A DNA stretch of 41,580 nucleotides, taken from positions 1 through 41,580 of IMG/VR virus record IMGVR_UViG_3300037493_000847; one strand, given 5' to 3'. The position numbers and the translations under genes were made by a program. Below the pieces are notes generated by a model. That model was not told the origin of the DNA, did not search any database, and worked only from the letters and a program-made list of their open reading frames with translations. Below, piece after piece: positions 1 to 41,580 of the stretch; within the stretch, counting starts at the first letter, position 1; the number at the start of each line of letters is the position of its first letter. The stretch comes from a virus.

Positions 1-143
1 GGCGGGCAGGGGCAGGGCGGCGGCGGGCAGGGCGGCGGGCCAGTCAGGTGCTGGCGGCGGCGGGCAGGGGCAGGGCGGCGGCGGGCAGGGCGGCGGGCCA
101 GTCAGGTGCTGGCGGCGGCGGGCAGGGGCAGGGCGAAAGAATA
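1..143. repeat. Left-end GC-rich tandem array
   Basis: These bases consist almost entirely of GGCGGGC and GGGCAGG words. A 58-base unit starts at 1 and again at 59, shown by the AGTCAGGTGCTGG core at 42 and 100, and a partial third unit follows. The same words build the array at 41339-41580, so the two contig ends probably belong to one array that the assembly could not cross. No credible gene lies here; the open frame at 48-293 is a by-product of the repeats. Confidence 0.9.
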
Positions 144-162
144 GGCCCGCCAATGGCGGGCC
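133..162 (-). terminator. Probable Rho-independent terminator of the CobS-like transcript
   Basis: GGCCCGCC (144-151) and GGCGGGCC (155-162) form a perfect 8-base-pair stem with a 3-base loop. Read leftward, the stem is followed by TATTCTTTC, a short T-rich tail. It lies 28 bases past the stop of the leftward gene at 190-1053, the expected place for its terminator, and separates that transcript from the terminal array. The T tract is interrupted, so strength is uncertain. Confidence 0.55.
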
Positions 163-189
163 AGTCAGGGCGGCGGGCTGGCGGCGGGC

Positions 190-1053
190 CTATGCGGCCC
201 GCTCAACCGCCCCATGGGTCGCCAGCATGGATGCGACCCATGCCGCCGCCGCCGTGTCGTTGGCAAAGGCTTCGCGGCCCTCGTGCGTGTTGAGGCCCGC
301 CACGCTCACGAAGTCAGTGGCCCCCGTCAGCGTGGGCAAGATTGCCGCCATCGTGGCGGCGTGGTCGTCCATCCATTGCGCCCCGCCGCCCTCTGCGGGC
401 CATCCCCCGACTACGCAACAAGTCGACAGCGCGGCGCGGCGGCAAGCTTCTGGCGAACAAAGCAACCAAGCGGCCCGCGCTAGGTCCAGCGGGGCCGTCT
501 CAATCCTGACCGCAAAGGCGGCGTTTTGCCCGTAATTTTGCGCCCCGTAGAAAGCCCACAAAGTCACGGGGCGGGCGGCGGCGGCAATGCGGGCCAGCGC
601 CAGCGCCGCCGCGCCACGGCGGGCAATTTCGGCGGGCTTTGCATTGGCGCTTACAGTCATCTCCACCGCAATCGTCAGCGGGGCGGCGGTGTCCATTGTG
701 CGGACACGCCGCCGCATGGACATGGGCGAGCCCGCCAGAAAAGCGGGAACATTGGGCGATCCGCCCGCCACGCAGTCCACTGTCCGCCAGCGCCGCGCCT
801 CAAAGCCCACGGCGCTTTCCATGCGGTCAAGCATAGCGTCAGACGCCGCGACACGCGCAACATCGCCCAACAGGGCGCGGTGCAAGGTGTCGGCGCGGTC
901 GGCCCCATAGAATGACAGATTGTCATCTGACCATCTGTCAGTGCCATACGCCGCCACGGGGCCAGCAAGGTAGGCCGCCAACGCCTCTGGCGCATCAAAG
1001 CGGGCGCATGGGATGGGGTCGCCAGCGGGGGACATCAAGTCAAAGCGCAACAT
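190..1053 (-). CDS. Conserved phage protein paired with the CobS-like ATPase
   Basis: This 287-residue protein has no catalytic motif I can name. It contains a conserved-looking core, VAGGSPNVPAFLAGSP at about residues 95-110, followed by an Arg-rich stretch (MRRRVR) and an Ala-rich helical half. From memory, phage proteins with this PNVPAFLAG core often sit beside CobS-like ATPases and may play the partner part that the VWA protein CobT plays for CobS; no VWA metal site is visible here. It starts on ATG directly after the TAA of the upstream ATPase gene (TAAATG), so the two are a coupled leftward pair. The DNA is far more GC-rich and lower in complexity than the rest of the genome. Confidence 0.7.
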   Translation of the reverse strand: MLRFDLMSPAGDPIPCARFDAPEALAAYLAGPVAAYGTDRWSDDNLSFYGADRADTLHRALLGDVARVAASDAMLDRMESAVGFEARRWRTVDCVAGGSPNVPAFLAGSPMSMRRRVRTMDTAAPLTIAVEMTVSANAKPAEIARRGAAALALARIAAAARPVTLWAFYGAQNYGQNAAFAVRIETAPLDLARAAWLLCSPEACRRAALSTCCVVGGWPAEGGGAQWMDDHAATMAAILPTLTGATDFVSVAGLNTHEGREAFANDTAAAAWVASMLATHGAVERAA

Positions 1054-2232
1054 TTAGGCCACCTCAATTTGTTGGATTTGGGCGTCAGTCAGGCCCCGCA
1101 GGTAAGTCATACGGGCCACGGCGTCAGGGGCCAGCCCCGCACGAATGAGGGCCGCGCCGCGAATTGAAGCGCGGGGCGTGATGGCGACTTTAAGGCCCGC
1201 TTTGGCGGCGCGGCGGCGGGCCGCTTGAACGCGACCTGACCAGTCAGCATTACCCGCAAGCGCTGTTTCAAGCGCTTCGTCATAGGCCCAGTCAAGGAAT
1301 GCGAAGCGGTCAAGGAAAGCGCCGTCCAGCCGATTGCGCCCGACATATTCCGCCGTGGCCCCGTTGCCATGTGTGTTACCAGCGCCAATGATGGCACAGT
1401 CAGGGTGGCGGTGGATCACTTCGCCCGTGGGCAGGGTCATACGCCCGTTGTCTAGCGGTCCGTTCAAGATCAGGGTGATCGTGGGGTCAGCGCTGTCCAG
1501 TTCATCCAGCAACACAAGCCCGCCGTTGCGGTAGGCCTCAACAAAGGGGGTCGTGTGATACGCGCCGCCGCCGTCCACAAAGCCCATCAGTTCGAAAGCT
1601 TGCGACATCGCCCCCATAGGCGCGAAGTCCAGCCCCAAGGCTTCCGCCGCCATGCGGGCGGCGGTCGTTTTGCCTGACCCCATTGGCCCCGCAAGCCATG
1701 CGTTAATGCGGTGGCCCGCGATGTCACGCGCCGCCACTGTCAGGATGAGCGTTTCAAGCATGGGGTGGCGGCTGGCGGGCAGTTCTGCGCCCCACGCCGC
1801 CCCATCCTGATTTACCACAAGCAAGCGGGGCGCGGCGCTTTCCAGCGCATCCACACGCGCCGTCAAATCGTCCAGCGCCGCCGTGTCGCCCTGTTGAGCG
1901 GTCAGCGCCGCCATCAGCGCATCCATCGCGCTTTGAACGCTAGGGGCGGCGCTGGCGGCGGGCCGCATCACGGCGGGCGTGGCGGCGGGGCGGGTCGTGT
2001 TGAAAAGGCCAGCGGGGGCGGTGGGGGCCGTTGTCATGGCGGCGGTGTCCTGTGCTGAGGTGTCAGAGGTGAAGCGGGAAACGTCAATTCCAAGGTGTTG
2101 GGCAACGGAAAGGGCGCGTGCAGCGCCAAGGCTGGACGTGTCGACGCCGTGCATACGGCGGTAGGCGGGCCAGTCAGGATGCGCCGCAATCAAGCGGCGT
2201 AGGGTGGCGCGGTCAGCGTTGGTCAGGTTCAT
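1054..2232 (-). CDS. CobS/MoxR-like AAA+ ATPase
   Basis: The product is 392 residues from the chosen ATG; a longer frame reaches 2274, but the 2232 start gives the N-terminus MNLTNADRATLRRL expected of the family. An N-terminal segment (PDWPAYRRMHGV) resembles the CobS N-terminal region. The ATPase core has Walker A GPMGSGKTT and Walker B LVLLDELDSADP, followed by a sensor-like GAGNTHGNG. AAA+ proteins of this group remodel or load metal into partner complexes; the function of phage copies is unknown. It is first in a two-gene leftward unit behind the promoter at 2274-2302. Like its neighbour it is unusually GC-rich, full of GCGGGC words and long Ala/Thr stretches at residues about 60-110. 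Confidence 0.88.
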   Translation of the reverse strand: MNLTNADRATLRRLIAAHPDWPAYRRMHGVDTSSLGAARALSVAQHLGIDVSRFTSDTSAQDTAAMTTAPTAPAGLFNTTRPAATPAVMRPAASAAPSVQSAMDALMAALTAQQGDTAALDDLTARVDALESAAPRLLVVNQDGAAWGAELPASRHPMLETLILTVAARDIAGHRINAWLAGPMGSGKTTAARMAAEALGLDFAPMGAMSQAFELMGFVDGGGAYHTTPFVEAYRNGGLVLLDELDSADPTITLILNGPLDNGRMTLPTGEVIHRHPDCAIIGAGNTHGNGATAEYVGRNRLDGAFLDRFAFLDWAYDEALETALAGNADWSGRVQAARRRAAKAGLKVAITPRASIRGAALIRAGLAPDAVARMTYLRGLTDAQIQQIEVA

Positions 2233-2273
2233 GGCGGTCAATCCTAGCAAACGGGCGTGAGTGCCCGCCCCCA

Positions 2274-2302
2274 CAAATAGGGCGAGTGTAGGCCTAAGTC
2301 AA
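2274..2302 (-). promoter_or_regulatory. Leftward sigma70-like promoter for the CobS-like pair
   Basis: Read on the minus strand, TTGACT (2297-2302) is followed after 17 bases by TATTTG (2274-2279). The -35 is good, the -10 poor (about half of consensus). It lies 42 bases upstream of the chosen start codon. A perfect palindrome at 2318-2336 stands just upstream, as an operator or activator site could. Confidence 0.45.
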
Positions 2303-2317
2303 TCCTGACTTTACCTA

Positions 2318-2336
2318 TAAAACACCAGGTGTTTTA
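2318..2336. promoter_or_regulatory. 19-base perfect palindrome, operator-like
   Basis: TAAAACACC and GGTGTTTTA are perfect reverse complements around a single central base. The site begins 16 bases upstream of the -35 of the leftward promoter at 2274-2302. Size and symmetry suit a dimeric helix-turn-helix regulator. The regulator is unknown. Confidence 0.5.
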
Positions 2337-2460
2337 GCCTGGACAAAGCCCATTTTATCCAATGTTTTCAATGGTTTGTAAGATCGTGACGAAAAAACAC
2401 CGAAAATAACCAAGCAATTTCAATAGGTTACAGCGTCCTCGCGCGCGGTGCTATATCACC

Positions 2461-2490
2461 TACGCGCGTGGCTTTATCGCTTCGCGCAGT
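2461..2490 (+). repeat. GGCTTTAT element, copy 1
   Basis: The 30 bases here match 3510-3540 closely, with one single-base gap and a few changes: both read TA(C/T)GCGCG, GGCTTTAT, then CGCGCAGT. A shorter relative (GGGCGAGGCTTTAT) lies at 3469-3482. The copies flank the iteron region. Their role is unknown; binding sites or origin elements are possible. Confidence 0.55.
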
Positions 2491-2800
2491 GACCTATAGT
2501 CACCGCCCTAGCTGCGCGGCGGGCGGCGGGTCACGGGTCTATCGTGGCCCAAGTCAGTTTGTCGGGATGTTGGGGCGTGATCTAACGGGCGGCGGGCGGC
2601 ATAGGGCCAGAGGCCAGCACAAACCCTGCAAAATGCGAAGTCAGGGTTGGGATAGGGGTAGGCCTAGGCCAAGCGACATGGGCCTGTGGCGGGCCTCTGC
2701 GGGCCTCTGCGGGCCATTAGGTCTGGCCTAAGCAATGGTTAGTCAGCAAAAGTCAGGCTAGACTAGCACTATTCCAACATCCGGCCCCGATCTGGCCTAA

Positions 2801-2815
2801 TTAGGCATTGCCTAA
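2801..2815. repeat. TAGGCATTGCCTA palindrome, copy 1
   Basis: TTAGGCA and TGCCTAA form a perfect palindrome about one central base. The inner 13 bases recur exactly at 2910-2922. The surrounding 300 bases are packed with related TAGGC and GCCTA words, including TAGGCCTA at 2289-2296. Confidence 0.55.
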
Positions 2816-2909
2816 GTATGGCATAGGCATAGCCCATGCAGGCATAGGGCATAGCATAGGCCAAACCTAAGCACCGCATAAGCATGGCCTACCCAAGTCA
2901 GGGCATGGG

Positions 2910-2922
2910 TAGGCATTGCCTA
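2910..2922. repeat. TAGGCATTGCCTA palindrome, copy 2
   Basis: An exact second copy of the 13-base palindromic core found at 2802-2814, 108 bases away. Repetition of a palindrome in a non-coding region suggests paired binding sites for one dimeric protein. Confidence 0.55.
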
Positions 2923-3019
2923 TGCAAGTCATAGGGTTGGCCTAACCTCGTGCGCGACCCGCGCCCAAGCCGTCCGGCGGTGCAGCGGGCGGCGGCGTGT
3001 CACGCATCCCGCGCCGTCC

Positions 3020-3119
3020 AGTCAGGGCCAAGTCAGGGCCAAGTCAGGGCCAAGTCAGGGCGGCAATATGGTTCAACCTTGAACCAAGTCAGGGCCAGTC
3101 AGGGCGGGCCAAGTCAGGG
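3020..3119 (+). repeat. AGTCAG iterons with 11-base spacing
   Basis: AGTCAGGG starts at 3020, 3031, 3042 and 3053, exactly 11 bases apart with an 11-base unit AGTCAGGGCCA. Three more copies lie at 3087, 3097 and 3112, beyond a palindrome (3069-3086). Even spacing of about one helical turn places the copies on one face of DNA, as in iteron-type origins. Confidence 0.8.
3069..3086. promoter_or_regulatory. 18-base palindrome between iterons
   Basis: TGGTTCAA and TTGAACCA form a perfect inverted repeat around two central bases. It sits between the four 11-base-spaced iterons and three further AGTCAG copies. Confidence 0.5.
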
Positions 3120-3290
3120 CGTTAACCGGTATGGATTATGCAGCAATATCAGTAGGTTAGCCTGAGTCAGGGCTGACTTTGACGCGCGACCCCCCCACGG
3201 GGCGGCGGCGGACGGGGCAGTTTTATTTTGACACCCTAACAGGCTGTCACCCAATAAATTTTACTTTTTCGGAAAAACACAACACGCGTC

Positions 3291-3340
3291 GAGTCAGCGT
3301 GAGTCAGGGCCAGTCAGGATGAGTCAGGCCGAGTCAGCGA
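3291..3340 (+). repeat. AGTCAG iterons with 10-base spacing
   Basis: AGTCAG begins at 3292, 3302, 3312, 3322 and 3332: five copies exactly 10 bases apart, with variable bases between. The constancy of the hexamer against changing spacers indicates selection on the hexamer and its spacing, not simple slippage. AT-rich DNA follows directly (3341-3370). Confidence 0.82.
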
Positions 3341-3368
3341 CCTCAAAAATTTTCCGCTGCAAAATTTT

Positions 3369-3388
3369 GAACTACTAAGTAGTAGTTC
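3369..3388. promoter_or_regulatory. 20-base palindrome, operator-like
   Basis: GAACTACTA (3369-3377) and TAGTAGTTC (3380-3388) are perfect reverse complements around two central bases. It stands about 190 bases upstream of the rightward promoter and 29 bases past the phased iterons. It could be a dimeric repressor or initiator site. Confidence 0.55.
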
Positions 3389-3409
3389 ACTTTGAGGGCG
3401 AAACCGCAC

Positions 3410-3454
3410 CACAAAATTTGCCGGCGTAATTCACAAAATTTGCCGGCGTAATTC
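3410..3454 (+). repeat. Tandem duplication, 22-base period
   Basis: The unit beginning CACAAAATTTGCCGG occurs at 3410 and again, identical over 23 bases, at 3432. The unit contains the AAAATTT word also seen at about 3345-3368, so the AT-rich stretch has a repeated design. Confidence 0.8.
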
Positions 3455-3509
3455 TGGCTCAATATCGCGGGCGAGGCTTTATGAACGAACGCGCTATTGC
3501 CATATGTCC

Positions 3510-3540
3510 TATGCGCGAGGCTTTATCCCATACGCGCAGT
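3510..3540 (+). repeat. GGCTTTAT element, copy 3
   Basis: This near copy of 2461-2490 lies just upstream of the rightward promoter. Its ends (TGCGCG and CGCGCA) could pair in a 6-base stem. A TTGCCA at 3497-3502 spaced 18 bases from CTTTAT would make a weak alternative rightward promoter. Confidence 0.5.
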
Positions 3541-3577
3541 CCACTACAGGTGGACTACGCTGGCGCTCCGTCCCCTG

Positions 3578-3606
3578 TGGACACACCAGCATTCTGTCGC
3601 TATACT
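3578..3606 (+). promoter_or_regulatory. Rightward sigma70-like promoter for the packaging and structural operon
   Basis: TGGACA (3578-3583), exactly 17 bases, then TATACT (3601-3606): five of six consensus bases in each box. Transcription would begin near 3613, about 14 bases before the terminase small subunit ATG, and the transcript carries the GGAGGG ribosome binding site at 3617-3622. Confidence 0.7.
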
Positions 3607-8740: not shown

Positions 8741-9750
8741 TGGCTCTTGAAGCCGGACAACCGATTGGCAAAATGTCGATGGACGACATTGCTGCCTCCA
8801 TGATCGTCTCCGCTGACCCTGTAAAGGAGGAGGAGACTACCGCTGACGCTGCGGACAATAGCGTCGAAGACCAAGTTGAGACGTCTGAGTCAGAATATGA
8901 GTCAGATGACGCCCCCACCGATGACACCGCCAACGACGATGATGAAAACTTTGAGACGTTCCAACTAACCGACGATACGCTTATCCCGGTGACAGTAGAT
9001 GGAGAGGGTCGAGAAGTAACGCTCGCTGACTTGAAACGTGCCTATTCTGGTGAAGGAGCAATCGAAAAGCGACTCCAAGTTGCCACGGAAACCAAAAAAC
9101 AGGCCGAAAGCCTGAAGGTCCAAGTGGAACAGGAGTTAAACTCTGGCCGTCAGAACCTCGTGAAAGCCTTTACAGCCTTCGAGAGCCTGATGTTCCAGCC
9201 TCAAATACCGCAGCCTAGCCTCGCACTTCAGCAAACCAACCCTACCCAATACCTCATTCAGCTTGAGAATTGGCGGGCGGAGCAAGGTGAACTTCAGCAG
9301 AAGCGAACCAAAGTGCAGCAAGCTGTGGCGCTGTTTCAGCAGCAAGAAGCAGAGCAACGCGACCAGATGAAGGCAGAAGCCGCTCATCGCCTCGTCGAAG
9401 CCATGCCCGTGCTGCGCGATCCCGTAAAGGGTCCAGAAATGCAGCGAATGATGGTAGACGCCGCTCGTGCATACCAATTCGCTGACAATGAACTGGCCGA
9501 CATCGTGGATCATCGGATGTATCTCGTGCTGGCTGACGCCGCCGCTTACAGGCAACTGAAGGCAAAAGGGCAAGCCGCACCGCAGAAACAGACCAAGGCA
9601 GCAGTCACCATGAGGCCCGGAGCATCTAAGCATCTCGCAACTGCAACGGCATCCGCGCGGAACCAAAAGGCCGCTCTGGAAACCGCTCGCAAGTCAGGTC
9701 GCGTCGAAGACATCGCCGCCACCATGCTTGTCCGCAAACCGAAAAGGTAG
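8740..9750 (+). CDS. Scaffold-like head assembly protein
   Basis: The 336-residue protein has a very acidic first 75 residues (runs of E, D and S), then a LTDDTLIPVTVDGEGREVTL segment, then a long Gln/Glu/Lys-rich coiled-coil region (about 105-220) and a basic C-terminus (RKPKR). Acidic start, coiled coil, basic end, and a position immediately before the major capsid gene are the usual features of phage scaffolds, which guide procapsid assembly and bind capsid through the basic tail. No protease domain is visible. Confidence 0.8.
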   Translation: MALEAGQPIGKMSMDDIAASMIVSADPVKEEETTADAADNSVEDQVETSESEYESDDAPTDDTANDDDENFETFQLTDDTLIPVTVDGEGREVTLADLKRAYSGEGAIEKRLQVATETKKQAESLKVQVEQELNSGRQNLVKAFTAFESLMFQPQIPQPSLALQQTNPTQYLIQLENWRAEQGELQQKRTKVQQAVALFQQQEAEQRDQMKAEAAHRLVEAMPVLRDPVKGPEMQRMMVDAARAYQFADNELADIVDHRMYLVLADAAAYRQLKAKGQAAPQKQTKAAVTMRPGASKHLATATASARNQKAALETARKSGRVEDIAATMLVRKPKR

Positions 9751-9756
9751 ACTATC

Positions 9757-10752
9757 ATGGCAGTTGATGCACAAACCATCGAAACGTATGACAACACTGT
9801 CATCCGTGAAGACCTCGAACAGCAGTACACGATGATCTCTCCTGAAGAGACGCCGTTCCAGACTGCTATCGGTGTCGGCCCCGCCGCAACCAACACTTAT
9901 CACGAGTGGACTGTTGTGGAATTGGCCTCGCCCTCGACCTCGAACCGCGTCATCGAAGGTGACGATGCTCCGGGCGAAGACAACGGCACTCTGGGTAAGC
10001 GCTTCGGCAACTACACCCAGATCAGCGACAAGATCGTGTCGGTTTCGAACACTTCGGAAGCCGTCGATGCTGCTGCTGAAAACGTCCAGCGTTTGGCCGC
10101 TCAGGTCGCCATCAAGCTGAAGGAAATGAAGCGCGATATGGAAGCCATGTTGCTTCAGAACATCGCTGCTGCCGCTGGCTCGTCGGGCACTGCTCGTCAA
10201 GCTGCTGGTCTGCCCGCTTGGCTGCGGACCAACATCGTTCTGGGTGCATCGGGCGCTGCGCCCACGCTGTCCGGCACGACTTCTGGTTATCCTAACGCTG
10301 CCCTGACTCCGGGAACGGCGGTTGTTTTGACCGAAACCAACCTGAATAACGTCATTCAGTCTTGCTGGAACGAGGGCGCTTCGCCTTCGATCATCATGGT
10401 TAACGCCAACAACAAGCGCGTCATCTCGAAGAACTTCACGGGTAACGCCACTCGCTACAAGGACGCTATCGACAAGCGTCTGACTGCCGCCATCGACATC
10501 TATGACTCGGATTTCGGTGAACTTTCGGTGGTCCCGAACCGCTTCCAGCAAACCACCGCCGCAGACAACTACTCGGTGTATGTGCTGGACCCCGAATACG
10601 CGAGCCTCTCCTTCTTGGAAACTCCGCGTCAGACGGAACTGGCCCAGACGGGCCACGCAAAGCGCCGCATGGTGCATTGCGAATACACGCTGAAAGTCTC
10701 CAACGAGAAAGCCCACGGCGCGATCCACGCGACCACTGGCGCAGCGGCCTAA
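9757..10752 (+). CDS. Major capsid protein (SU10-type)
   Basis: The 331-residue protein begins MAVDAQTIETYDNTVIRED and continues with ISPEETPFQTAIG and NTYHEWTVVEL, the N-terminal pattern of the SU10 major head protein family (DUF5309, from memory), which has the HK97 fold. A long helix at residues 100-130 (AAAENVQRLAAQVAIKLKEM) suits the HK97 spine helix. Codon use is the cleanest in the window, with a strong preference for GCT, CTG and AAG, as expected of a highly expressed gene. A stem-loop follows the stop. Confidence 0.92.
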   Translation: MAVDAQTIETYDNTVIREDLEQQYTMISPEETPFQTAIGVGPAATNTYHEWTVVELASPSTSNRVIEGDDAPGEDNGTLGKRFGNYTQISDKIVSVSNTSEAVDAAAENVQRLAAQVAIKLKEMKRDMEAMLLQNIAAAAGSSGTARQAAGLPAWLRTNIVLGASGAAPTLSGTTSGYPNAALTPGTAVVLTETNLNNVIQSCWNEGASPSIIMVNANNKRVISKNFTGNATRYKDAIDKRLTAAIDIYDSDFGELSVVPNRFQQTTAADNYSVYVLDPEYASLSFLETPRQTELAQTGHAKRRMVHCEYTLKVSNEKAHGAIHATTGAAA

Positions 10753-10760
10753 CATCAACT

Positions 10761-10782
10761 GGGGCGGCGGCAACGCCGCCCC
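10761..10782 (+). terminator. GNRA-tetraloop hairpin after the capsid gene
   Basis: GGGGCGGCG and CGCCGCCCC form a perfect 9-base-pair GC-only stem closed by a GCAA tetraloop, a very stable RNA fold. No T tract follows (CTACCTCC), so it is more likely an mRNA 3' stabiliser or partial terminator that lets capsid mRNA exceed downstream messages. Confidence 0.65.
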
Positions 10783-10803
10783 TACCTCCAACATAGGTGC
10801 ATT

Positions 10804-11043
10804 ATGGCCGACGAACCTGAAATTGCTGTCGTTGAAGTCGATGTCAAAATCGCAGAGGAACCCGCGCCCAAGAAACGCGCAAAGCCCGCAACGGCAAAAT
10901 ACGAAGTCATCAATGGCGCGATCAGCCCCAATGGTGGCGGCATGGAAGACCTCGTACATCCGGGGACTATCGTAGAATTGTCCACTGAGATGGCGATACA
11001 CTACAACAAACTGGGCTATTTGAAGCCCTACATTGAGGCATAA
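10804..11043 (+). CDS. Small head protein
   Basis: A 79-residue protein with an acidic N-terminus, a basic Pro-rich patch (EPAPKKRAKPATAKY), and a folded end (VINGAISPNGGGMEDLVHPG...LGYLKPYIEA). Downstream of the major capsid gene, such short proteins are often capsid decoration or head-tail joining factors. The ribosome binding site is weak. Function not recognised. Confidence 0.7.
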   Translation: MADEPEIAVVEVDVKIAEEPAPKKRAKPATAKYEVINGAISPNGGGMEDLVHPGTIVELSTEMAIHYNKLGYLKPYIEA

Positions 11044-11044
11044 T

Positions 11045-11347
11045 ATGCGACTGCCATCTTCGCCAATCGTCGAAAAACTGTATCTCAACCCAAACGGGAC
11101 GCAGTTTCACTTTGTCAAAACGCAAGATGTGCAGGGCATTCTCGAAGCAGCTAAGGACGCAGCAGAAATTCTGCGTCCTAACACTGGCCCCGCTGGGGGC
11201 AAATACCTTGGCACAGTGCCTGTTCTGATCGCCCAGCAATGGGCAAAAGAGTGCGGCGCATCAGTAGGGTCGCGCGAGTGGGCAACTTATGCTAAAACAA
11301 AGCTACGCGATGGAACGTGGGCTAGACTAAGGGTGCATCAGAAATGA
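11045..11347 (+). CDS. Small conserved head-region protein
   Basis: A 100-residue protein from the ATG at 11045, one base after the preceding TAA. It has alternating strands and helices (IVEKLYLNPNGTQFHFVKTQDVQGILEAAKDAAEILRP). The C-terminal half (VLIAQQWAKECGASVGSREWATYAKTKLRDG) looks like a compact helical domain and recurs in phages in front of adaptor genes. It overlaps the next gene by ATGA. Role unknown. Confidence 0.7.
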   Translation: MRLPSSPIVEKLYLNPNGTQFHFVKTQDVQGILEAAKDAAEILRPNTGPAGGKYLGTVPVLIAQQWAKECGASVGSREWATYAKTKLRDGTWARLRVHQK

Positions 11348-12354: not shown

Positions 12355-13551
12355 ATGGCTACTATCGTCACACGCGCTGGAAAAGGTAGCCCACTTACTC
12401 ATAACGAGGTGGACGCCAATTTTGTCAACCTCAACAATGACAAGGCGGAGACTGCTTCTCCTGCTTTGACAGGGACACCTACGTCTACTACTGCGGCGGT
12501 TGGGACTAACACTACGCAAATTGCCACAACCGCTTTTGTAAACGCAGAAATTGCAAACGACATTGCTGGTAAAGCTAATTTAGCTTCTCCTGCTTTGACA
12601 GGGACACCTACGTCTACTACTGCGGCGGTTGGGACTAACACTACGCAAATTGCCACAACCGCTTTTGTAAACGCAGAAATCGCAAACGATGCACCAACAA
12701 AAACTGGGACGGGTGCATCTGGAACTTGGGGCATTAGCATCACAGGCGATGCTGCGACAGCCGACGGCAAATCATTCGGCACGTTCACCGCTGCTGGTGG
12801 TATCGCCTATGCCACAAGCACGACCGCGCTCGCAGCAATCGGCGCGGGGACAGCCGGACAGGCTCTACTTTCTGGCGGGGCTGGTGCGCCGACATGGGGC
12901 AACCTTGCTGACTATCAAGTTTTCACCGCAACAGGCACTTGGACAAAGCCCGCTGGGATTTCCGCAGATGCGATTGTTTTTGTTCGGATGTGGGCTGGCG
13001 GCGGCGGGGGGCATCCAACCAGCTTTAATGGCGGAGGAGGCGGAGGCGGTTACGGGGAGTTGTGGCTGAAAGCCTCTGATCTTGGGGCAACTGAAGCAGT
13101 TACAGTTGGTGGCGGCGGAGCAGCGGGTGCGGCTGGCGGAAACACAACTTTTGATGGCAGGACTGTATTTGGTGGAGGCGCTGGCTTAGCTACGCCAGGC
13201 GGCGCTGGTGGGAACAGTTTTTCCCAAGGTCCACAAGCGGGTTCAGGCAGTCCATCGGCTGTCTCATTTCTAGGCGGGGCGGGTAGCTCTGCTGTTCTGG
13301 GTTATGGGGGCGCTGGAGAATTTTGGGGTGGCGGCGCTGGTGGGCATGACCAAGGGGATGGCGGGCAAGCCATATGGGGTGGCGGAGGTGGCGCTGGCGG
13401 GACGGGTGGCTCTCTTGGAGGCGTATCAACATTTGGTGGTAATGGTGGCAATCCAAATGGCGCTGGAAGCGCCCCTGCTGGTGGCGGTGGAGGCGGCACG
13501 GGTGCGGGCGCTGGTGCGCGTGGCGAAGTTCGCGTTTGGACAATTGGGTGA
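12355..13551 (+). CDS. Tail fibre with glycine-rich tip
   Basis: The 398-residue protein has three parts. Residues 1-33 form a short N-terminal piece (GSPLTHNEVDANFVNLN, typical of fibre starts). Residues 34-115 hold two identical repeats (ASPALTGTP..TTQIATTAFVN), each about 36 residues on a 43-residue pitch. From about 213 to the end lies a glycine-rich domain with many GGGG runs and the closing GARGEVRVW. Glycine-rich tips of this kind form polyglycine sheets in fibre adhesins that bind the host surface. The repeat is perfect at DNA level (12454-12551 and 12583-12680), a likely site of copy-number change. Confidence 0.88.
   Translation: MATIVTRAGKGSPLTHNEVDANFVNLNNDKAETASPALTGTPTSTTAAVGTNTTQIATTAFVNAEIANDIAGKANLASPALTGTPTSTTAAVGTNTTQIATTAFVNAEIANDAPTKTGTGASGTWGISITGDAATADGKSFGTFTAAGGIAYATSTTALAAIGAGTAGQALLSGGAGAPTWGNLADYQVFTATGTWTKPAGISADAIVFVRMWAGGGGGHPTSFNGGGGGGGYGELWLKASDLGATEAVTVGGGGAAGAAGGNTTFDGRTVFGGGAGLATPGGAGGNSFSQGPQAGSGSPSAVSFLGGAGSSAVLGYGGAGEFWGGGAGGHDQGDGGQAIWGGGGGAGGTGGSLGGVSTFGGNGGNPNGAGSAPAGGGGGGTGAGAGARGEVRVWTIG
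12454..12680 (+). repeat. 98-base perfect direct repeat inside the fibre gene
   Basis: Bases 12454-12551 are identical to 12583-12680 (129-base period). With one mismatch the match extends nine bases further, to 12560 and 12689. Synonymous positions are also identical, so the duplication is recent or kept uniform by recombination. Confidence 0.92.
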
Positions 13552-24360: not shown

Positions 24361-27093
24361 ATGGCAATGAACTCTCGCCGCAACCCGCTCTCTGCCCTTC
24401 TGGACTATGCAAACGCGCGGGGCGACGAGGCTTCGAGCATCGGCAGCGTGATGACTCAACTTGCCAGCCCTATCCTCAAAGGACAGGGCGTCCAAGTTGA
24501 CAATGCCGTGCAGCGCGGCCCAGTGCCGCAGCCAACCCTCGTAGAGTTTAACACCACATCAAAAGAGCGGCTGGCGGGGGCTGATCCTCGCCTGAGCGAC
24601 TTTATGACTGAAGTTGAGCGGCGAGCAAGCGGTCAAGGCATCAATATGCAGATCGCGGAAACCAACCGCAGCCCAGAGCGTCAGGAAGCTATGGTTGCTT
24701 CCGGCAAGTCGCAGACGCTAAACAGCCACCATCTGACTGGAAACGCCGCAGACATTTACCTTGTCGGGCCGGATGGCAAACCAAATTACAATTTTGATGA
24801 CTACAAACCTGTTGCTGACATTGCAAAAGAAGTTGCCGCAGAGCGCGGCCTGACTGATTTCCAATGGGGAGGCGACTGGAATACGCTCAAGGATGGCGTC
24901 CACTTCCAGCTTGGCGGCGCTCCTAACCTGAACACGACAGTCAGCACGATGAGCGCACCAAACGCTGGTGGCGCTTTGCCTCAGACTGTCGAAGGCATTC
25001 TGTCTTCGCTTTATCCTGACTCGACTGAGGCTGAGAAAACCGCGCACCGCAAAGACATCTGGCGTGGTCTCAGTCAGGGTCTGTCTGCCTTGTCGCAAGG
25101 TCGTCAGGTCGATTTGTCGAATATCGCTGCAAACGCGGACCAACGCCGCCGCCAGTATGTCCTCGACACGCGTGAAAAAGAGAAAGCCAAGGCTGCTGCC
25201 TCGCTGGTCTACTCGCAGACTGGTGACGCCAGCATGGCTGCTGGCATCGCCTCTGGAGCAATCAACTACACTGACGTTCTGAACGAGCGCCAGATGAAGC
25301 GGGCAGAACAAGCAGCACAAGATGCTCGTTTGAAAGATGCGGCGTCTACTGACGCTCTGCTTACGGCTATGAGAGCCGCAAAAATGCCGGAAGCGACAAT
25401 TAAACTTGTGGAAGAAGGCGGGGTCGATGCGCTGGATACATTTCAAAAACTCCAAGCCGACCAAAGTGTGCTTGAACAAGAAGCAAAGCAGCAAGACATC
25501 CGTGACCAGAATGTCGCTGACGCTCGTTTCATTCTAAGCACTGCTGCGCCGGGAAGCATACAAGCGCGGGCCGCAGAGCGCGTCATCGCCCTTGGCGGCG
25601 AAGAAGATGTCTTCACCTTGATGAAGGATCGCGCTCCTGCTGCTGACGCCCAATTCACACTTGGTGCGGGCGAAGTCCGCTATGGCCCAAATGGTGAAGT
25701 CATCGCCACTGGCCCTGCCTCGGCAGCTTCTGACTCCAGCTTTACGCTTGGTGCGGGCGAAGTACGTTATGGTCCAAATGGTGAAGTCATCGCCACTGGT
25801 CCAGCATCGTCTGCGGCTACTTCAGGCTTCACGCTTGGGGCTGGACAAGCCCGCTACGACGATCAGGGTAATATCATTGCTACTGGCCCTGCTGCTCCTC
25901 CAAATATGCAGTATGCTCTAGGACCAGATGGTCAAGTGGTTCTCGTTCCTGCTACCGCCCCTGCGGCTACGGGCGGCGCTCCTGCGGCTGGTGGCGCTCC
26001 TGCGGGGACTGTCGGTGGCGCGTTTGGAACTATGTTTGGTTCTGTAAATGATGCGGCGAAAGCAGCACTGCTTCCGGGAGACATTGCACAGCAGACTGCT
26101 ACCTTGGCCGATACCATCGCTGGCACAGCAGCTACGGAGCAAGCAATGGCTATAGCAGCAGAGGCAGCGCCTGTAGAACTGCAAAACGCAAAAGCTGACT
26201 TGGAGGCGCAATTACAAGAAAACCGCCTAAAAGCAGCAACAGAGTCTGATGAAGTAGCGAAGGCCGCACTTGATGTAGAAGCCGCTAATATCGCCAACGC
26301 GCAAGCTGCTTTGAACTTAAACATCGCCCAAAACAGTCAGAGCCTCGATCTAGAAGCGAAACGCCTAGCAGTCGAAAAGGCAAAAGCTGACGCCGTTGCG
26401 GCGCAGCAAGCAGTCACTGACGCAAAGAGAGTTGCCGACGACAAAGCCGCCCAGCGACAAGTCCAAGCAACTGTGTCTGCGGATACAGTGATGCGCTACG
26501 GCAAAGACATTTTGGACATGACTTCTGACTGGTCCGACAGTGTTCTAGCCGGAGGGGTAAACATGGTAGCGGGTATGATCCCGCGCACAGAAGTGGCTGA
26601 AGTCGCTGACCGCGTAAATACGATTAAGAATATGACTGCGCTCGACAGCCTTACTGCCATGCGAAACGCCAGCCCCACAGGCGCAGCAGTCGGCAACCCG
26701 TCTGATGCGGAAGGAAAGCGCCTAGAAGCCCGTTACGGCGCTCTTAACGTCAACGGCGATCCAGTGAAGTTGCGCGAAGACATTTACGCTGCCATGAACG
26801 CATATCTGGATACTGTCTACGGCACACCAGAACAAATCAAGAAGCGGTATGACGATGGCAAAATTACTGGGGCAATAGCAGACGCTTATTCTGCCCGCTA
26901 CGCCACCCGTGGCGCTGGCGTAGACCCTGCTACAGCAAAGGTCGGTTCGATTACCACACTCGGCTTGACTGACACTGATATGACTGTTCTTGGCTCCCTA
27001 TCTGGGGCTGACTCGCTAATGGCCCCCGATACTCTGACCGCAGAAGAACGGGCGATCCTTGACAGTCTCAACGCTCCCGCAGGAGGTAACTGA
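24361..27093 (+). CDS. Large ejection protein with M15 peptidase domain
   Basis: The 910-residue protein carries an M15-type peptidoglycan peptidase domain at about residues 60-188. The zinc motif SHHLTGNAAD (122-131, ligands H124 and D131) is complete, and a third ligand lies in DGVHFQL (H181). A helical region follows. Three 29-residue repeats start at residue 432 (FTLGAGEVRYGPNGEVIATG), then comes a Pro/Ala/Gly linker, a long coiled coil (about 585-715), and a C-terminal helical domain. M15 enzymes cut cell-wall stem peptides; in a virion protein this would open the wall during DNA entry. AAAGGAAA precedes the ATG. Confidence 0.88.
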   Translation: MAMNSRRNPLSALLDYANARGDEASSIGSVMTQLASPILKGQGVQVDNAVQRGPVPQPTLVEFNTTSKERLAGADPRLSDFMTEVERRASGQGINMQIAETNRSPERQEAMVASGKSQTLNSHHLTGNAADIYLVGPDGKPNYNFDDYKPVADIAKEVAAERGLTDFQWGGDWNTLKDGVHFQLGGAPNLNTTVSTMSAPNAGGALPQTVEGILSSLYPDSTEAEKTAHRKDIWRGLSQGLSALSQGRQVDLSNIAANADQRRRQYVLDTREKEKAKAAASLVYSQTGDASMAAGIASGAINYTDVLNERQMKRAEQAAQDARLKDAASTDALLTAMRAAKMPEATIKLVEEGGVDALDTFQKLQADQSVLEQEAKQQDIRDQNVADARFILSTAAPGSIQARAAERVIALGGEEDVFTLMKDRAPAADAQFTLGAGEVRYGPNGEVIATGPASAASDSSFTLGAGEVRYGPNGEVIATGPASSAATSGFTLGAGQARYDDQGNIIATGPAAPPNMQYALGPDGQVVLVPATAPAATGGAPAAGGAPAGTVGGAFGTMFGSVNDAAKAALLPGDIAQQTATLADTIAGTAATEQAMAIAAEAAPVELQNAKADLEAQLQENRLKAATESDEVAKAALDVEAANIANAQAALNLNIAQNSQSLDLEAKRLAVEKAKADAVAAQQAVTDAKRVADDKAAQRQVQATVSADTVMRYGKDILDMTSDWSDSVLAGGVNMVAGMIPRTEVAEVADRVNTIKNMTALDSLTAMRNASPTGAAVGNPSDAEGKRLEARYGALNVNGDPVKLREDIYAAMNAYLDTVYGTPEQIKKRYDDGKITGAIADAYSARYATRGAGVDPATAKVGSITTLGLTDTDMTVLGSLSGADSLMAPDTLTAEERAILDSLNAPAGGN
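25654..25914 (+). repeat. 87-base coding repeats in the ejection protein gene
   Basis: Three units start at 25654, 25741 and 25828. Units 1 and 2 are nearly identical over their first 70 bases, while unit 3 has diverged. Each encodes FTLGAG, a Tyr turn and IATGPA, probably a beta-hairpin. Confidence 0.85.
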
Positions 27094-29075: not shown

Positions 29076-31154
29076 TCAGCCCTCTAGCTTGAAGATGCGG
29101 AAGAACGTGACCAGAGGGGAACCATAGCGGTTCTCCTTTGTTTCCAGCATCACGTTGTAGCCGCCAGCGACATTCTTGCCCGTCGATGGGAACAGCCCCA
29201 GCAAGAACGAACTCAAGTCAGCAGCGTCAGCCCGCATCTTTGACGCCTTCGAATACAGGTTCGTGTCCTTCAGCGCCTCTTTCAAATGCTCGTGCATCCG
29301 CTTCAACGGCACAATGCCCACACCATAGGCCGCGACAGCGGCGTAGAGCGGCTGATACATCATCTCCAGCCGCAGCATTTCAGACGCAGCATCCGCTGCC
29401 TCGTTCACTGACTTGGCCCCCGGAAGCAGCACAGGCGCTGTAATCTCGTAGCCCTGATTGCTGATGCCCAGCTTCTCAGTCACGATGTCGAACAGGAACG
29501 TCTTGTCGTCGTCGATAGACCGCGCCATCAAGATTTTCAGTTCGAGTTGGTCAGTCTCCTCGTTCTTGGTCAAAGTCAGCAGCGTGTCAGGTTCAGCCTG
29601 AATGTTGCTCGAACCGCGCGGCCCGCTGCCGTTCTTGGTATTGTGGTGAATGATGACCACCGCTGCCTTGATGCCAGCGTCCTTGATCTTGGCGATGACA
29701 TCGAACACCGCCGATGTGTCTTCCACGCTGTTCTGGTCGCCTCCGGGCATTGCCTTAGTCAGCGTGTCGATGACGATGACGCCGATGTGGTTTTCGCCCT
29801 TCTTCAGCCACCACGCATCCGCTGCCTTGATCTGCTCCACGAGATTAAGTCGCGCCGCTTCGTCCAGAAGGTTGATGCTTTCTTCGACAGTGTAGAACGG
29901 GAACGTCTTTTCATCTGTGTATTTCTCGTCCGCTGGGTCGTGGTATTTCTTCCACGCCATCAGACGTTTCCTGATCGCGGTCTGGCTTTCAAGAGCGAAA
30001 TACAGCACGGGGCGGCGCTCTGTCACAGTCAGCGTATCATCGAAGTTAAGACCAGCAGCGATGTGCATAGCCAAGGTCTGACTGACCAGCGTCTTCCCTG
30101 CCTTGGGATCAGCCGAAATCAGCGTGACTTCGCTCGCATGGTAGATCGGGTGCATGATGAACTCCTCCGTCAGAACGTCTAGCTTCTCGTGGCCGAAATA
30201 GCCGCGCTTGCCCGCAAACGGAAAGTCATCGCCGTAGGAAGCCGCTGTCACCACGGGCAACTGCGCGTTCTCAATCCGTGTGGCCGGAAACATAGTCGCG
30301 GCCATTTCCTTCAGCCAGACGGGGGCGGCATCGCGCAGCCCGTCTGTCTTCGAGACTGTGTTGAACTTCGAGTGGCCGCTGCCGACGATGCGCGTCAACT
30401 CGCCGCTCTTGTCCGCCATGATAGGCTCCCAGCGGTCGTGCCGTGGGTGCTTTGGGTTGGCGGCGACTGAAGCGTTCATCAGCCCCAGCAGCGTGGCTTG
30501 CACAGACTCCATAGGCTCGCCAGCAGACGACATCTTGGCTGCAAGCTGAGTCAGGCTGTCGTGGAAATCATCCCCCGTCAGGATGTTCTTCTTTAGGGCC
30601 TCTATGGGCGTGGCGGCTTGGGCTACCCTAGCAGAGCGAAGGTGGTCTAGGAGGCCCGCAGAGGCCGCTACAGCGCCTTCGCTGACTACAGTGTAACCCG
30701 GAGAGGGTGGAACGACGATATAGCCCCCCTCGCCCTTTACCTCGACGCCCTTGGACGGCTTGCAATTAGGGAACTCTGTGTCGGACGAGAAGATGTAGTG
30801 CCGACCGCCGTTCCGTGTGGCGTGGACGCGCGTCTTGGGCATGAAGCCTGACTGAGACAGCCAAAGGACATACTTCTTCGCCGCCTCGCCTGATTCGCCT
30901 TCCTTGTAAGTGTCGGCGTCAATGGCGAACAAGCCAGAGGCTTCCCCCATCCTTGCGCCGATACCATGCAGACGGCTCCCAGCATCCAGAAACATTTGCC
31001 GGATGCGATCTGGATCAGTCGTGGCATCGTAAAAGCCGTTCTGGGTCAGGGGCCGCTTGTCGTCGCCTGTCGGAAACACTGGGACGCCTAAGTCTGCCCA
31101 GTCCAGCGCCGCTTCGATCAAGTCAGCGGGCGTGATGACTTGGTGCATATTCAT
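29076..31154 (-). CDS. PrimPol-helicase fusion (replicative primase/helicase)
   Basis: The 692-residue protein joins two enzymes. Residues 10-165 form an archaeo-eukaryotic-type primase/polymerase domain: metal site FAIDADT (D79, D81), TRNGGRHYIF (His119), and VEVKGEGGYIVVPPS (137-151). Residues 320-560 form a RecA-like helicase of the RepA/AAA_25 kind: Walker A SADPKAGKT (347-355), Walker B IGVIVIDTLT (D463), then VVIIHHNTK (499-507) and GPRGSSNIQAEPD. It would prime synthesis and unwind DNA at the phage fork. The ATG overlaps the resolvase stop (ATGA). No separate initiator gene was seen. Confidence 0.92.
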   Translation of the reverse strand: MNMHQVITPADLIEAALDWADLGVPVFPTGDDKRPLTQNGFYDATTDPDRIRQMFLDAGSRLHGIGARMGEASGLFAIDADTYKEGESGEAAKKYVLWLSQSGFMPKTRVHATRNGGRHYIFSSDTEFPNCKPSKGVEVKGEGGYIVVPPSPGYTVVSEGAVAASAGLLDHLRSARVAQAATPIEALKKNILTGDDFHDSLTQLAAKMSSAGEPMESVQATLLGLMNASVAANPKHPRHDRWEPIMADKSGELTRIVGSGHSKFNTVSKTDGLRDAAPVWLKEMAATMFPATRIENAQLPVVTAASYGDDFPFAGKRGYFGHEKLDVLTEEFIMHPIYHASEVTLISADPKAGKTLVSQTLAMHIAAGLNFDDTLTVTERRPVLYFALESQTAIRKRLMAWKKYHDPADEKYTDEKTFPFYTVEESINLLDEAARLNLVEQIKAADAWWLKKGENHIGVIVIDTLTKAMPGGDQNSVEDTSAVFDVIAKIKDAGIKAAVVIIHHNTKNGSGPRGSSNIQAEPDTLLTLTKNEETDQLELKILMARSIDDDKTFLFDIVTEKLGISNQGYEITAPVLLPGAKSVNEAADAASEMLRLEMMYQPLYAAVAAYGVGIVPLKRMHEHLKEALKDTNLYSKASKMRADAADLSSFLLGLFPSTGKNVAGGYNVMLETKENRYGSPLVTFFRIFKLEG

Positions 31155-38936: not shown

Positions 38937-38951
38937 AGCAGAACCCTTTTT

Positions 38952-39955: not shown

Positions 39956-40146
39956 TCTTTCGCCCTTGCTATAGCCATCCAGTCATCGACATCTATTTCT
40001 AGATCGTCCACCATATCCACCAGCCGCTGAATGACAAAAACTAGGCTTGGCTCTGCCTCGCTGTAAGCGTCTACCAAGTCAGCCAATAGGGCGTGACGGG
40101 TGGCTGGCTCGTCCAGTTCGTGCGCTCGCATCTGCCACAGTTTCAT
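39952..40146 (-). CDS. Small acidic early protein, 64 residues
   Basis: A helical and acidic protein (MKLWQMRAHELDEPATRHALLADLVDAYSEAEPSL...MVDDLEIDVDDWMAIA). ATGA overlaps join it to both neighbours. Size and charge resemble small phage inhibitors or DNA mimics, but that is speculation. Confidence 0.6.
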   Translation of the reverse strand: MKLWQMRAHELDEPATRHALLADLVDAYSEAEPSLVFVIQRLVDMVDDLEIDVDDWMAIARAKE

Positions 40147-40367
40147 TTCTTGTCCTCCAGCGCAGTCAGGCGCTTTTCGTGAGCCAACAGGATTTGGTGC
40201 ATCCGCAGCCAGTTTTGGTGGGTGTCGCCCCGCGCAAAGCCAAGCTGACTTTGGATAGCCAACTGTTCTTTGTGCATCGCCTCTTGTTCAGGCGTCCGCA
40301 AGTCTGTGACGTAGACGCGGGGTGCTGGACCCTTAAACGTGTTCATCCACGGCCATTTTTTCATCAT
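40143..40367 (-). CDS. Small early protein, 74 residues
   Basis: Starts MMKKWPWMNTFKGPAPRVYVTDLRTPEQ and continues as a helix (EAMHKEQLAIQSQLGFARGDTHQNWLRMHQILLAHEKRLTAL). The ATG at 40367 overlaps the upstream stop in ATGA and follows an AGAGGG ribosome binding site; a longer frame back to 40412 is unlikely. Function unknown. Confidence 0.62.
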   Translation of the reverse strand: MMKKWPWMNTFKGPAPRVYVTDLRTPEQEAMHKEQLAIQSQLGFARGDTHQNWLRMHQILLAHEKRLTALEDKK

Positions 40368-40582
40368 TTCTTGCCCTCTTTCCACAGGTTGCCTTCTGCC
40401 CACATCGCCCAAGCGACATCGGCGCTCACTTCGCGCTCTGCCTCATCGCGGTCGCGCATTAGTTTGATCTTAGCCCCCGCGCCGTGGCCCACAAAGCCGC
40501 GCACTAGGTAGGTGTTTCCGGCGGCATCGCGCAGGGTTTCCCCTGCGCTTACCATTTCCGCAATCTTGTCAGCGGCGCTCAT
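40364..40582 (-). CDS. Small early protein, 72 residues
   Basis: A small alpha/beta protein (MSAADKIAEMVSAGETLRDAAGNTYLVRGFVGHGAGAKIKLM, then DRDEAEREVSADVAWAMWAEG). The DAAGNTYLVRG segment suggests a small beta domain. ATGA overlaps with both neighbours. Function unknown. Confidence 0.62.
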   Translation of the reverse strand: MSAADKIAEMVSAGETLRDAAGNTYLVRGFVGHGAGAKIKLMRDRDEAEREVSADVAWAMWAEGNLWKEGKK

Positions 40583-40836
40583 TCCCCGCGCTCCTCTGGC
40601 TCATAGTGCTGCGCCAGTTCGGAATAATTGATTTCACCAAGGGAACAGTTCAACAGATCAAGCAGGAAGCGGCCTTCTACGCTCTTGGTTTCTGACTCGC
40701 AGATTTCTTCCACAGTCTCGCGGATAAAGGCTTCAGTGATAATCTCGCCTTCTTCGCTTCTCTGTGCAAAGTCATCGCCCAGCCACAAGTTGACTAGCCA
40801 CGTTTCCTTATTGGTCCATCCGTTGTAATCGCTCAT
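40579..40836 (-). CDS. Conserved small phage protein, NGWTNKETW family
   Basis: The 85-residue protein opens MSDYNGWTNKETWLVNLWLGD, a signature of a widespread small phage family (DUF7249, from memory). It continues with FIRETVEEICESETKS and SLGEINYSELAQHY. Function unknown, but homologues lie in early regions of many unrelated phages and could act on host functions. The ATG overlaps the stop of a 36-residue membrane peptide (ATGA). A longer frame to 41019 is not used. Confidence 0.82.
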   Translation of the reverse strand: MSDYNGWTNKETWLVNLWLGDDFAQRSEEGEIITEAFIRETVEEICESETKSVEGRFLLDLLNCSLGEINYSELAQHYEPEERGE

Positions 40837-40943
40837 AGTCCAACACTCCCCAGCCCGTAGCCAATAAGGCCAACAACGATGATCCACGGCACAAAGACAT
40901 AAGGCCGCGACATAAATTCCAAAAACTCTTTCAGGTCTTTCAT
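40833..40943 (-). CDS. 36-residue membrane micropeptide
   Basis: The frame opens at ATG 40943 behind AAAGGGGG and ends in the ATGA overlap at 40833-40836. It reads MKDLKEFLEFMSRPYVF, then a hydrophobic segment VPWIIVVGLIGYGLG and SVGL. One membrane helix, N-terminus charged. The strong ribosome binding site and exact fit between two genes make it a likely gene. Confidence 0.65.
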   Translation of the reverse strand: MKDLKEFLEFMSRPYVFVPWIIVVGLIGYGLGSVGL

Positions 40944-40957
40944 GGTCAGTCCCCCTT

Positions 40958-41215
40958 TCAATACAGGTCCAAAGTGTCGTCGGCCTCGTGCTGCTTCCAG
41001 CGGTCTTGCGCGGCCTCATATGCGCTGCTGCTCTCGGCGCGTTCCAGCATATCGCGCTGCTCAGTCAGCAGCCGATATTTGACGTTAAGGACGCGCTCCG
41101 CGCTGTCTTGGCTCAGTTCGCACTTGATGCCCTGCAAACGGGCCTCAAGGTGTTCGATGTCATCGCGCAGGACGCTGACATTTTCGCGCAGTTCTTCAAT
41201 CGTGGGTATAGGCAT
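40958..41215 (-). CDS. First early gene: coiled-coil protein, 85 residues
   Basis: This coiled-coil protein (IEELRENVSVLRDDIEHLEARLQGIKCELSQDSAERVLNVKYRLLTEQRDMLERAE) is the first gene behind the leftward promoter. AAAGGGG precedes ATG. The bases around its start, GGGG-CTGACCATG, recur at the next gene's start (40943). Function unknown. Confidence 0.7.
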   Translation of the reverse strand: MPIPTIEELRENVSVLRDDIEHLEARLQGIKCELSQDSAERVLNVKYRLLTEQRDMLERAESSSAYEAAQDRWKQHEADDTLDLY

Positions 41216-41254
41216 GGTCAGCCCCTTTCTTGGGTCTAGCAGGATCGTCCTTAC

Positions 41255-41282
41255 AGTCTAGTCTTTCTTACACTCTTGTCAA
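41255..41282 (-). promoter_or_regulatory. Main leftward early promoter
   Basis: On the minus strand, TTGACA (41277-41282), 16 bases, then TAGACT (41255-41260). A perfect -35 and a four-of-six -10. Transcription would start near 41248 and begin with the recurring leader motif CCTGCTAGACCC. Three TTCTTGC words (41289, 41300, 41309; complement GCAAGAA) at 11- and 9-base spacing lie just upstream, as activator or repressor sites would. Confidence 0.68.
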
Positions 41283-41338
41283 GCAACATTCTTGCAGCTT
41301 TCTTGCTATTCTTGCTTATATATCAAGTCAGTAAGTCA

Positions 41339-41580
41339 GGGGCAGGGGCGGCGGGCGCGGGCGGCGGGCAGGGCGGGCCAGTCAGGTGCTGGCGGCGGGC
41401 CAGTCAGGTGCTGGCGGCGGCGGGCCAGTCAGGTGCTGGCGGCGGCGGGCCAGTCAGGTGCTGGCGGCGGCGGGCCAGTCAGGTGCTGGCGGCGGCGGGC
41501 CAGTCAGGTGCTGGCGGCGGCGGGCAGGGGCAGGGCGGCGGCGGGCCAGTCAGGTGCTGGCGGCGGCGGGCAGGGGAAGG
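41339..41580. repeat. Right-end tandem array, 25-base units
   Basis: After GC-rich words, the core CAGTCAGGTGCTGGCGG occurs at 41379, 41401, 41426, 41451, 41476, 41501 and 41547. Four successive gaps are exactly 25 bases; the first is 22 and the last 46 with a GGGCAGG insert like that of the left-end array. The array lies upstream of the early promoter and continues the left end, so the contig probably closes here. No gene seen. Confidence 0.92.

Follow-up and report, generated by a model that had tools for sequence, protein, structure and literature searches.

The hexamer AGTCAG, with its complement CTGACT, is scattered throughout a virus genome (IMG/VR record IMGVR_UViG_3300037493_000847; the whole 41,580-bp stretch analysed is here called the window) in numbers that codon usage does not explain. 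The excess is selected at the level of the DNA, and across the roughly 70 other viruses compared the identity of such words follows the N-terminal domain, here called NT1, of a phage-encoded AAA+ ATPase of the MoxR/CbbQ/NorQ type. This is most simply explained if the domain binds the word: AGTCA(G) would be a genome-wide recognition site of NT1 that directs an AAA+/VWA machine to phage DNA, a reading to which we give a probability of about 0.66. The word, the gene pair and the proposed reader are located as follows.

Positions 1–41,580, no strand assigned: AGTCAG/CTGACT, 163 copies, and the core AGTCA/TGACT, 260 copies (exact counts, whole genome).
Positions 190–1053, minus strand: gene for a DUF7192 protein of 287 residues (Pfam PF23822, E=1.7e-11; AlphaFold predicted local distance difference test score, pLDDT, 86).
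Positions 1054–2232, minus strand: gene for the MoxR/CbbQ/NorQ-type AAA+ ATPase, 392 residues (Pfam AAA_5, E=2.4e-12; Foldseek).
Positions 2059–2232, minus strand: NT1, the ATPase's N-terminal helical domain of about 55 residues (AlphaFold), which tracks the word and is its proposed reader.

On the plus strand AGTCAG occurs 92 times and CTGACT 71 times, together about one site per 255 bp over the 41,580 bp. The original prediction, made by eye from the sequence, had put them at roughly 98 and 75; the figures are thus corrected and the over-representation stands. In the raw ranking of hexamers AGTCAG comes third, behind GGCGGC and GCGGCG, because GC-rich terminal repeats inflate both of these. 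For the genes, two null models were used: in the first, synonymous codons were shuffled within each gene, preserving the protein and its codon usage, and in the second, stricter, model the dinucleotides at codon junctions were preserved as well. AGTCAG ranks first of all hexamers under both, with 114 copies in genes compared with 24.8 expected (z 18) under the first and 38.6 (z 12) under the second, so that the claim of strong over-representation survives both corrections. Each of the five stop-free frames shows the excess (40 vs 10, 31 vs 7, 23 vs 5, 13 vs 1 and 7 vs 1). The core that is enriched is AGTCA/TGACT (210 vs 78), and the base that follows AGTCA is preferentially G (4.2-fold), with A not favoured. 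These features support the word as a putative protein-binding site, acting as DNA. Two other candidate explanations were rejected. Tandem repeats are not the sole source of the word, the excess persisting within genes, and regular spacing or helical phasing is seen as 10–11-bp steps in a cluster in the window but not as any genome-wide period common to other phages.

The orientation bias that had also been noticed exists in the raw counts, with 71 CTGACT to 43 AGTCAG on the coding strand, but carries no signal of its own. Codons predict a ratio of 27 to 11 under the stricter null, and observed/expected ratios for the four combinations of gene direction and word are nearly equal (5.0, 4.9, 4.8 and 3.7). 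The bias is that of codon usage. Once this is corrected for, no strand asymmetry of the kind expected of an oriented, Chi- or KOPS-like address is left; a Chi-like motif or a lagging-strand signal should show one, and neither is supported.

A recount in related phages, which the original prediction had proposed, finds AGTCAG at 24–50 per 10 kb in all 28 IMG/VR contigs that have a close DNA polymerase, and codon correction leaves it first among hexamers in every larger relative tested. In the genes compared with those of one relative (G012, 69.6% nucleotide identity), 36 of 83 word sites are in place, or 43%, compared with a median of 24% for hexamers (rank 3 of 170), and the totals are equal, 83 in the window and 83 in the relative. 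Old sites are therefore preserved and lost sites replaced elsewhere, which indicates that selection acts on the number of words as well as on their place. In the closest cultured phage, Sinorhizobium phage phiM5, whose gene order matches that of the window, AGTCAG is not in excess; there the favoured words are CTGTCA/CTGACA (153 vs 20 and 151 vs 21), and the core TGACA/TGTCA (357 vs 74) shows a stronger excess than the window's own word.

The ATPase and DUF7192 genes together span positions 190–2274 of the window: the likely ATG gives the ATPase 392 residues, and the frame is open to a GTG at 2274. By profile and predicted fold, the ATPase core is an AAA+ module of the MoxR/midasin clade. Foldseek matches it to AfCbbQ2 (E=8e-15) and NorQ (E=2e-14) with probability 1.00, and profile searches match midasin, CobS and NorQ. 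DUF7192 is probably a VWA-like partner protein with a degenerate motif resembling the metal ion-dependent adhesion site (MIDAS), D/E-x-T/S-x-S, spotted by eye in an alignment; its best Foldseek match, the VWA domain of NorD, is not significant (E=0.5), NorD being the partner of NorQ. MoxR ATPases and their VWA partners are known as remodellers of protein complexes. The DUF7192 gene adjoins that of the ATPase in all nearer members of the family, and the remote ATPases L116–L152 are without a detectable one. The pair is common in phages, often annotated 'porphyrin biosynthesis' or CobS, and its two genes are the non-structural genes best shared by the window and phiM5 (41% identity for the AAA_5 ATPase, 36% for DUF7192); a DUF7192 search of 50,697 phage records gave phiM5 as its only match. 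A scan of the pair against defence families gave no match for the window proteins and only weak, ATPase-level matches for relatives. Searches of passages from open-licence papers turned up no description of such a system, either under the pair in phages or under words spread phage-wide.

Which gene the word follows was examined in IMG/VR contigs gathered through the ATPase and DUF7192 genes, with words ranked in each. These contigs are unannotated, and their genes were called as long non-overlapping open reading frames; domain borders are approximate and the phages are related to one another. Many of the pair-bearing contigs have words in extreme excess (TGACA, AGTCA, AGCTA, CGGAC, ACAGA, AGACA and TGCCA), and the median z of the best word is 6.7 in pair-bearing loci compared with 4.6 in 77 IMG/VR contigs taken at random. 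The ATPase is the sole gene of the window that is present in all strong-word phages. One genome of 45.8 kb (G021) has only the ATPase/DUF7192 pair in common with the window and shows CTGTCA at z 20, and phage MW202496 has counterparts of nearly all the window's virion and replication genes (terminase, portal, scaffold, capsid, RuvC, PolA and SNF2 helicase) but lacks both the pair and the word.

The ATPases themselves differ in the part that precedes the AAA+ core. The NT1 pattern, R..LR.AI..H..W..YR..., is found in both the window and phiM5, and AlphaFold predicts helices at residues 5–17, 21–28 and 37–46 (pLDDT mostly 85–95; mean 88–95 over residues 11–50), after which the chain runs through a disordered linker and a coiled coil into the AAA+ core. 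TGACA or AGTCA is within the top 3 of 512 pentamers in 28 of the 30 genomes with NT1, whereas the best rank of either among the 39 genomes without it is 23 (Mann-Whitney p=1e-10, uncorrected for kinship). A tree built from the ATPase core and DUF7192, with the N-terminus excluded, places three genomes (L100, L101 and G054) inside the TGACA clade with a Shimodaira-Hasegawa-like approximate likelihood-ratio (SH-aLRT) support of 99; these have a zinc-ribbon N-terminus and are without the word. NT1 thus tracks the word, and from this association we infer that it binds it.

ATPases with other N-termini are accompanied by other words (AGCTA, CGGAC, AACAGA, GTTTAA) or by none. When N-termini were clustered without preset types, and pairs were taken whose ATPase cores are at least 50% identical with little DNA similarity, a strong word was shared by 52% of pairs with similar N-termini compared with 7% of those with dissimilar N-termini, a rule that is weak at lower core identity. 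For 16 ATPases with a different N-terminus, many of them starting MFDH... (L385–L412 and L449), GTTTAA is the word in 12. Further cases were seen in passing. L443 and L446, with similar ATPase N-termini, favour TAGCAA/TTGCTA (mean z 17.6), and L446 has TGCTAA at 43 vs 7; AACAGA is the top word of both L433 and L066 (G032), the ATPase N-termini of which share a FDHER.KK.ECIDKL-like stretch; and in the contig L389, whose related ATPase has yet another type of N-terminus, CGCTAG/CTAGCG is in excess (31 vs 4).

The word is found in coding and non-coding DNA alike, as first described, at 3.1–3.8 per kb in gene blocks, 16 per kb in the non-coding stretch 2275–3503 and 16–30 per kb in the terminal repeats. 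Its densest places are these.

Positions 2275–3503, no strand assigned: non-coding word cluster upstream of the ATPase gene, with 20 AGTCAG/CTGACT, 18 on the plus strand.
Positions 1–135, no strand assigned: left end, a 58-bp tandem repeat with AGTCAG; further AGTCAG at 161–176.
Positions 41,331–41,580, no strand assigned: right end, a 25-bp tandem repeat, GGCGGGCCAGTCAGGTGCTGGCGGC, with AGTCAG in nearly every unit.

The non-coding cluster, which includes tandem 11-bp and 10-bp repeats at 3020–3061 and 3292–3338, forms a local maximum of word density beside the operon. In the window, the 1.2 kb that precede the ATPase gene contain 23 AGTCA, or 19 vs 6 per kb, in the top 0.4% of intervals along the window, and in 26 of 28 NT1 genomes the density in this 1.2-kb region exceeds the genome mean (median 2.1-fold). 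Combined over 15 lineage representatives, the upstream peak has p=7e-6. Beside the word cluster lie dense TAGGC/GCCTA repeats (2640–2945), within which is a 39-nt imperfect inverted repeat (2857–2895 and 2906–2944); this region is possibly a replication origin. The very GC-rich tandem repeats at 1–180 and 41,331–41,580, with the 25-bp unit GGCGGGCCAGTCAGGTGCTGGCGGC, are probably a single array, broken at the ends of the record.

Several observations weigh against NT1 as the reader of the word. The genomes were fetched through the pair itself, so the pair is shared by construction, and the comparison with phages that do not carry it rests on 6 phages and 77 random contigs. The core tree gives four independent changes of NT1, three in agreement with the word, none in disagreement and one a tie, and because there are only four, significance corrected for kinship is out of reach. 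Two remote NT1 members disagree, G057 being without the word and G035 having AGACA. In a hold-out search the one clear NT1 that was added (L425) came with a weak TGACA, at rank 9, and one genome without a clear NT1 (L394) had TGACA first. A second N-terminal type, NT2, is accompanied by various words (AGCTA, CGGAC, AGACA) and sometimes by none, and the strong-word phages G013, G017, G035 and G032 show little or no peak upstream of the ATPase. Finally, a Pfam profile search with NT1 gave no match, whether to a known DNA-binding domain (SAP, HeH or HTH) or to any other; SAP was matched weakly by a sibling ATPase, L096 (E=0.003).

This last point bears on the best surviving alternative, that another protein travelling with the ATPase/DUF7192 operon, perhaps nucleoid-like or regulatory, reads the word, and that the pair co-segregates or acts with that reader. 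NT1 is without a recognised DNA-binding fold, and association cannot separate tightly linked factors. However, no third gene of the window is common to all strong-word phages, and within the ATPase family the word follows the N-terminal domain, even to the loss of that domain inside the TGACA clade. We regard a separate reader as improbable, though less so than any of the other alternatives. The original prediction had included a phage nucleoid protein among its possibilities, and comes closest to the result here: the idea of a phage protein on dispersed sites is retained, with the N-terminal domain of an AAA+ ATPase favoured in place of a histone-like protein.

Could the word instead be driven by the host, with the phage mimicking a host address, a modification site or a Chi-like word? 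Many of the carriers may share alphaproteobacterial hosts, and an ATPase search of a genome collection returned a single close match, on a contig binned as Hyphomicrobiaceae (L154). Against this, in 150 kb of pSymB from S. meliloti, the host of phiM5, TGACA lies below expectation (23 vs 41, 27 vs 43 and 26 vs 37), so that the same excess in host genes, which would have spoken for a host origin, is not found there. Nor is a TGACA excess seen in phage 16-3 (50 vs 51), which we take to infect S. meliloti, and the rhizobial phages N65 and P106B show little or no word excess. The strand asymmetry typical of Chi and KOPS is also missing. A host-driven word is thus unlikely; as judged with S. meliloti, the host of a relative, the word is a property of the phage, not one taken from the host. 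TGACA occurs at 9.6 per kb throughout phiM5, whereas S. meliloti genes have it at about 0.6 per kb, and this scarcity in host DNA makes the word a good discriminator between phage and host.

Among the phage's own replication proteins, the primase has to be considered.

Positions 29,076–31,154, minus strand: Prim-Pol primase with a RecA-like helicase domain (Pfam PF09250, E=1e-20; AAA_25, E=4e-24).

The T7-type primase site first suggested is not supported: this enzyme is a Prim-Pol of the archaeo-eukaryotic primase (AEP) type, joined to a RecA-like helicase domain, and not a TOPRIM-type, gp4-like protein that reads GTC. The word could still be a Prim-Pol start site, kept dense for lagging-strand priming, and its GTCA core resembles the template motifs that the NrS-1 phage Prim-Pol is reported to recognise, TTTGGTTA and GTGA/GTGG (PMC8718748). 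Yet a search over 50 records found no Prim-Pol match in the strong-word genomes G017 (43.5 kb) and G021 (45.8 kb); the Prim-Pols of the window and phiM5 are unlike by BLAST although their words are alike; phages MW202711 and MW202867 have window-related primases without a GTCA word; and the word is without strand preference. We consider priming very unlikely to be its function. Least probable of all is a site-specific nicking or packaging motif, packaging having been among the early suggestions. The LUZ24-like virion genes bring it to mind, as phage tf is reported to carry nicks at TACT/RTGMC (PMC3517423), but tf has 14 sites on one strand, compared with 163 on both strands of the window, where the tf consensus (WACTRTGMC-type) is not enriched (1 match vs 1.6 expected).

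If NT1 is the reader, a mechanism can be proposed in which the N-terminal domain of the ATPase (1054–2232) docks on AGTCA(G) sites. The sites kept in and between genes would then recruit the ATPase/partner complex all along phage DNA, and not host DNA, and the dense cluster just upstream of the operon would probably serve as a nucleation or autoregulatory site. Established MoxR/VWA pairs remodel protein complexes (PMC7159879), and by analogy we guess that the machine acts on host proteins bound to phage DNA, remodelling them or taking them off, with the word acting as a self-address; even granted the binding, this particular function is rather doubtful. The wider proposition, which we judge evenly balanced, is that phages of a widespread class carry, hundreds of times in the genome, a self-address word specific to their lineage, which a MoxR-type AAA+/VWA machine reads through an exchangeable DNA-binding domain at its N-terminus, each domain type (GTCA, AGCTA, CGGAC, AACAGA, GTTTAA, TAGCAA and others) having its own word in a code of self and non-self between phage and host. 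If this is true, phages would mark their own DNA by spelling and not by modified bases, with codon choice reshaped genome-wide to let a dedicated AAA+ machine recognise that DNA. It would also offer an initial clue to what a common, unexplained phage gene pair does, a code of domain versus word that can be read from sequence, and a testable mechanism for self/non-self discrimination or counter-defence.

The 41,580-bp virus record itself has two convergent halves. The rightward-transcribed half is a virion module of the LUZ24-like podovirus type (terminase, portal, scaffold and SU10-type capsid), and the leftward half is a replication module (Prim-Pol/helicase, RuvC-like protein, PolA, Cas4-like exonuclease and SNF2 helicase). 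The virion module belongs with the LUZ24-like podoviruses by its homologous capsid, portal and terminase and by the convergent gene halves: the capsid is 38–45% identical to those of phiM5 and Pseudomonas LUZ24-like phages, and the portal and terminase have homologues too. Tandem repeats with 129-bp and 87-bp units lie within the tail-fibre gene (12,454–12,689) and the gene for a 910-residue endolysin-domain protein (25,654–25,838). A 464-residue open frame on the minus strand (9694–11,088), antisense to the capsid gene and with a similar antisense frame in phiM5, is probably an artefact of codon usage. Some words are strongly avoided. CCAGG/CCTGG (CCWGG) is seen 3 times in the window vs 92 expected, and 0–1 times in the relatives L001–L028, and GTAC 38 times in the window vs 180 expected; in Rhizobium phage P106B (L036), CCTGGA/TCCAGG, which is avoided in the window and phiM5, is over-represented (73 vs 21). 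GCAGGC/GCCTGC occurs 0–1 times in the window's near clade and 10–63 times in the sister clade, as if the near clade faced one more restriction system.

How does this system compare with others that use short dispersed words? The nick motif TACT/RTGMC of the LUZ24-like phages tf and Rembedalsseter is likewise a dispersed, phage-specific motif in related virion types, but it is an unrelated motif with 13–14 sites on one strand, compared with 163 on both. In NrS-1, too, a replication protein of the phage, the Prim-Pol, recognises a short motif in the template, but from phage to phage the word does not follow the Prim-Pol. The HIP1 element of cyanobacteria (GCGATCGC), which is reported to contain a methylated CGATCG (PMC6604393), resembles the word in being over-represented genome-wide without strand preference. 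It differs in being chromosomal and palindromic, whereas AGTCAG is non-palindromic and tied to an ATPase operon. Further parallels are Chi (RecBCD/AddAB) and KOPS (FtsK), short words that are also over-represented genome-wide, including in genes, and are each recognised by a DNA motor or ATPase of their own; these, however, are chromosomal and strand-biased, whereas the window's word is phage-borne, has no strand bias and differs according to which N-terminal domain the phage's MoxR-type ATPase carries. As for the machine itself, NorQ-NorD, CbbQ-CbbO, RavA-ViaA and CobS-CobT are of the same AAA+ clade by fold, and the window ATPase, like them, stands beside a probable VWA-like partner. To our knowledge the targets of such MoxR AAA+/VWA pairs are protein complexes or metal centres, and not DNA words; what sets the window ATPase apart from them is its additional N-terminal domain, which tracks a word written genome-wide.

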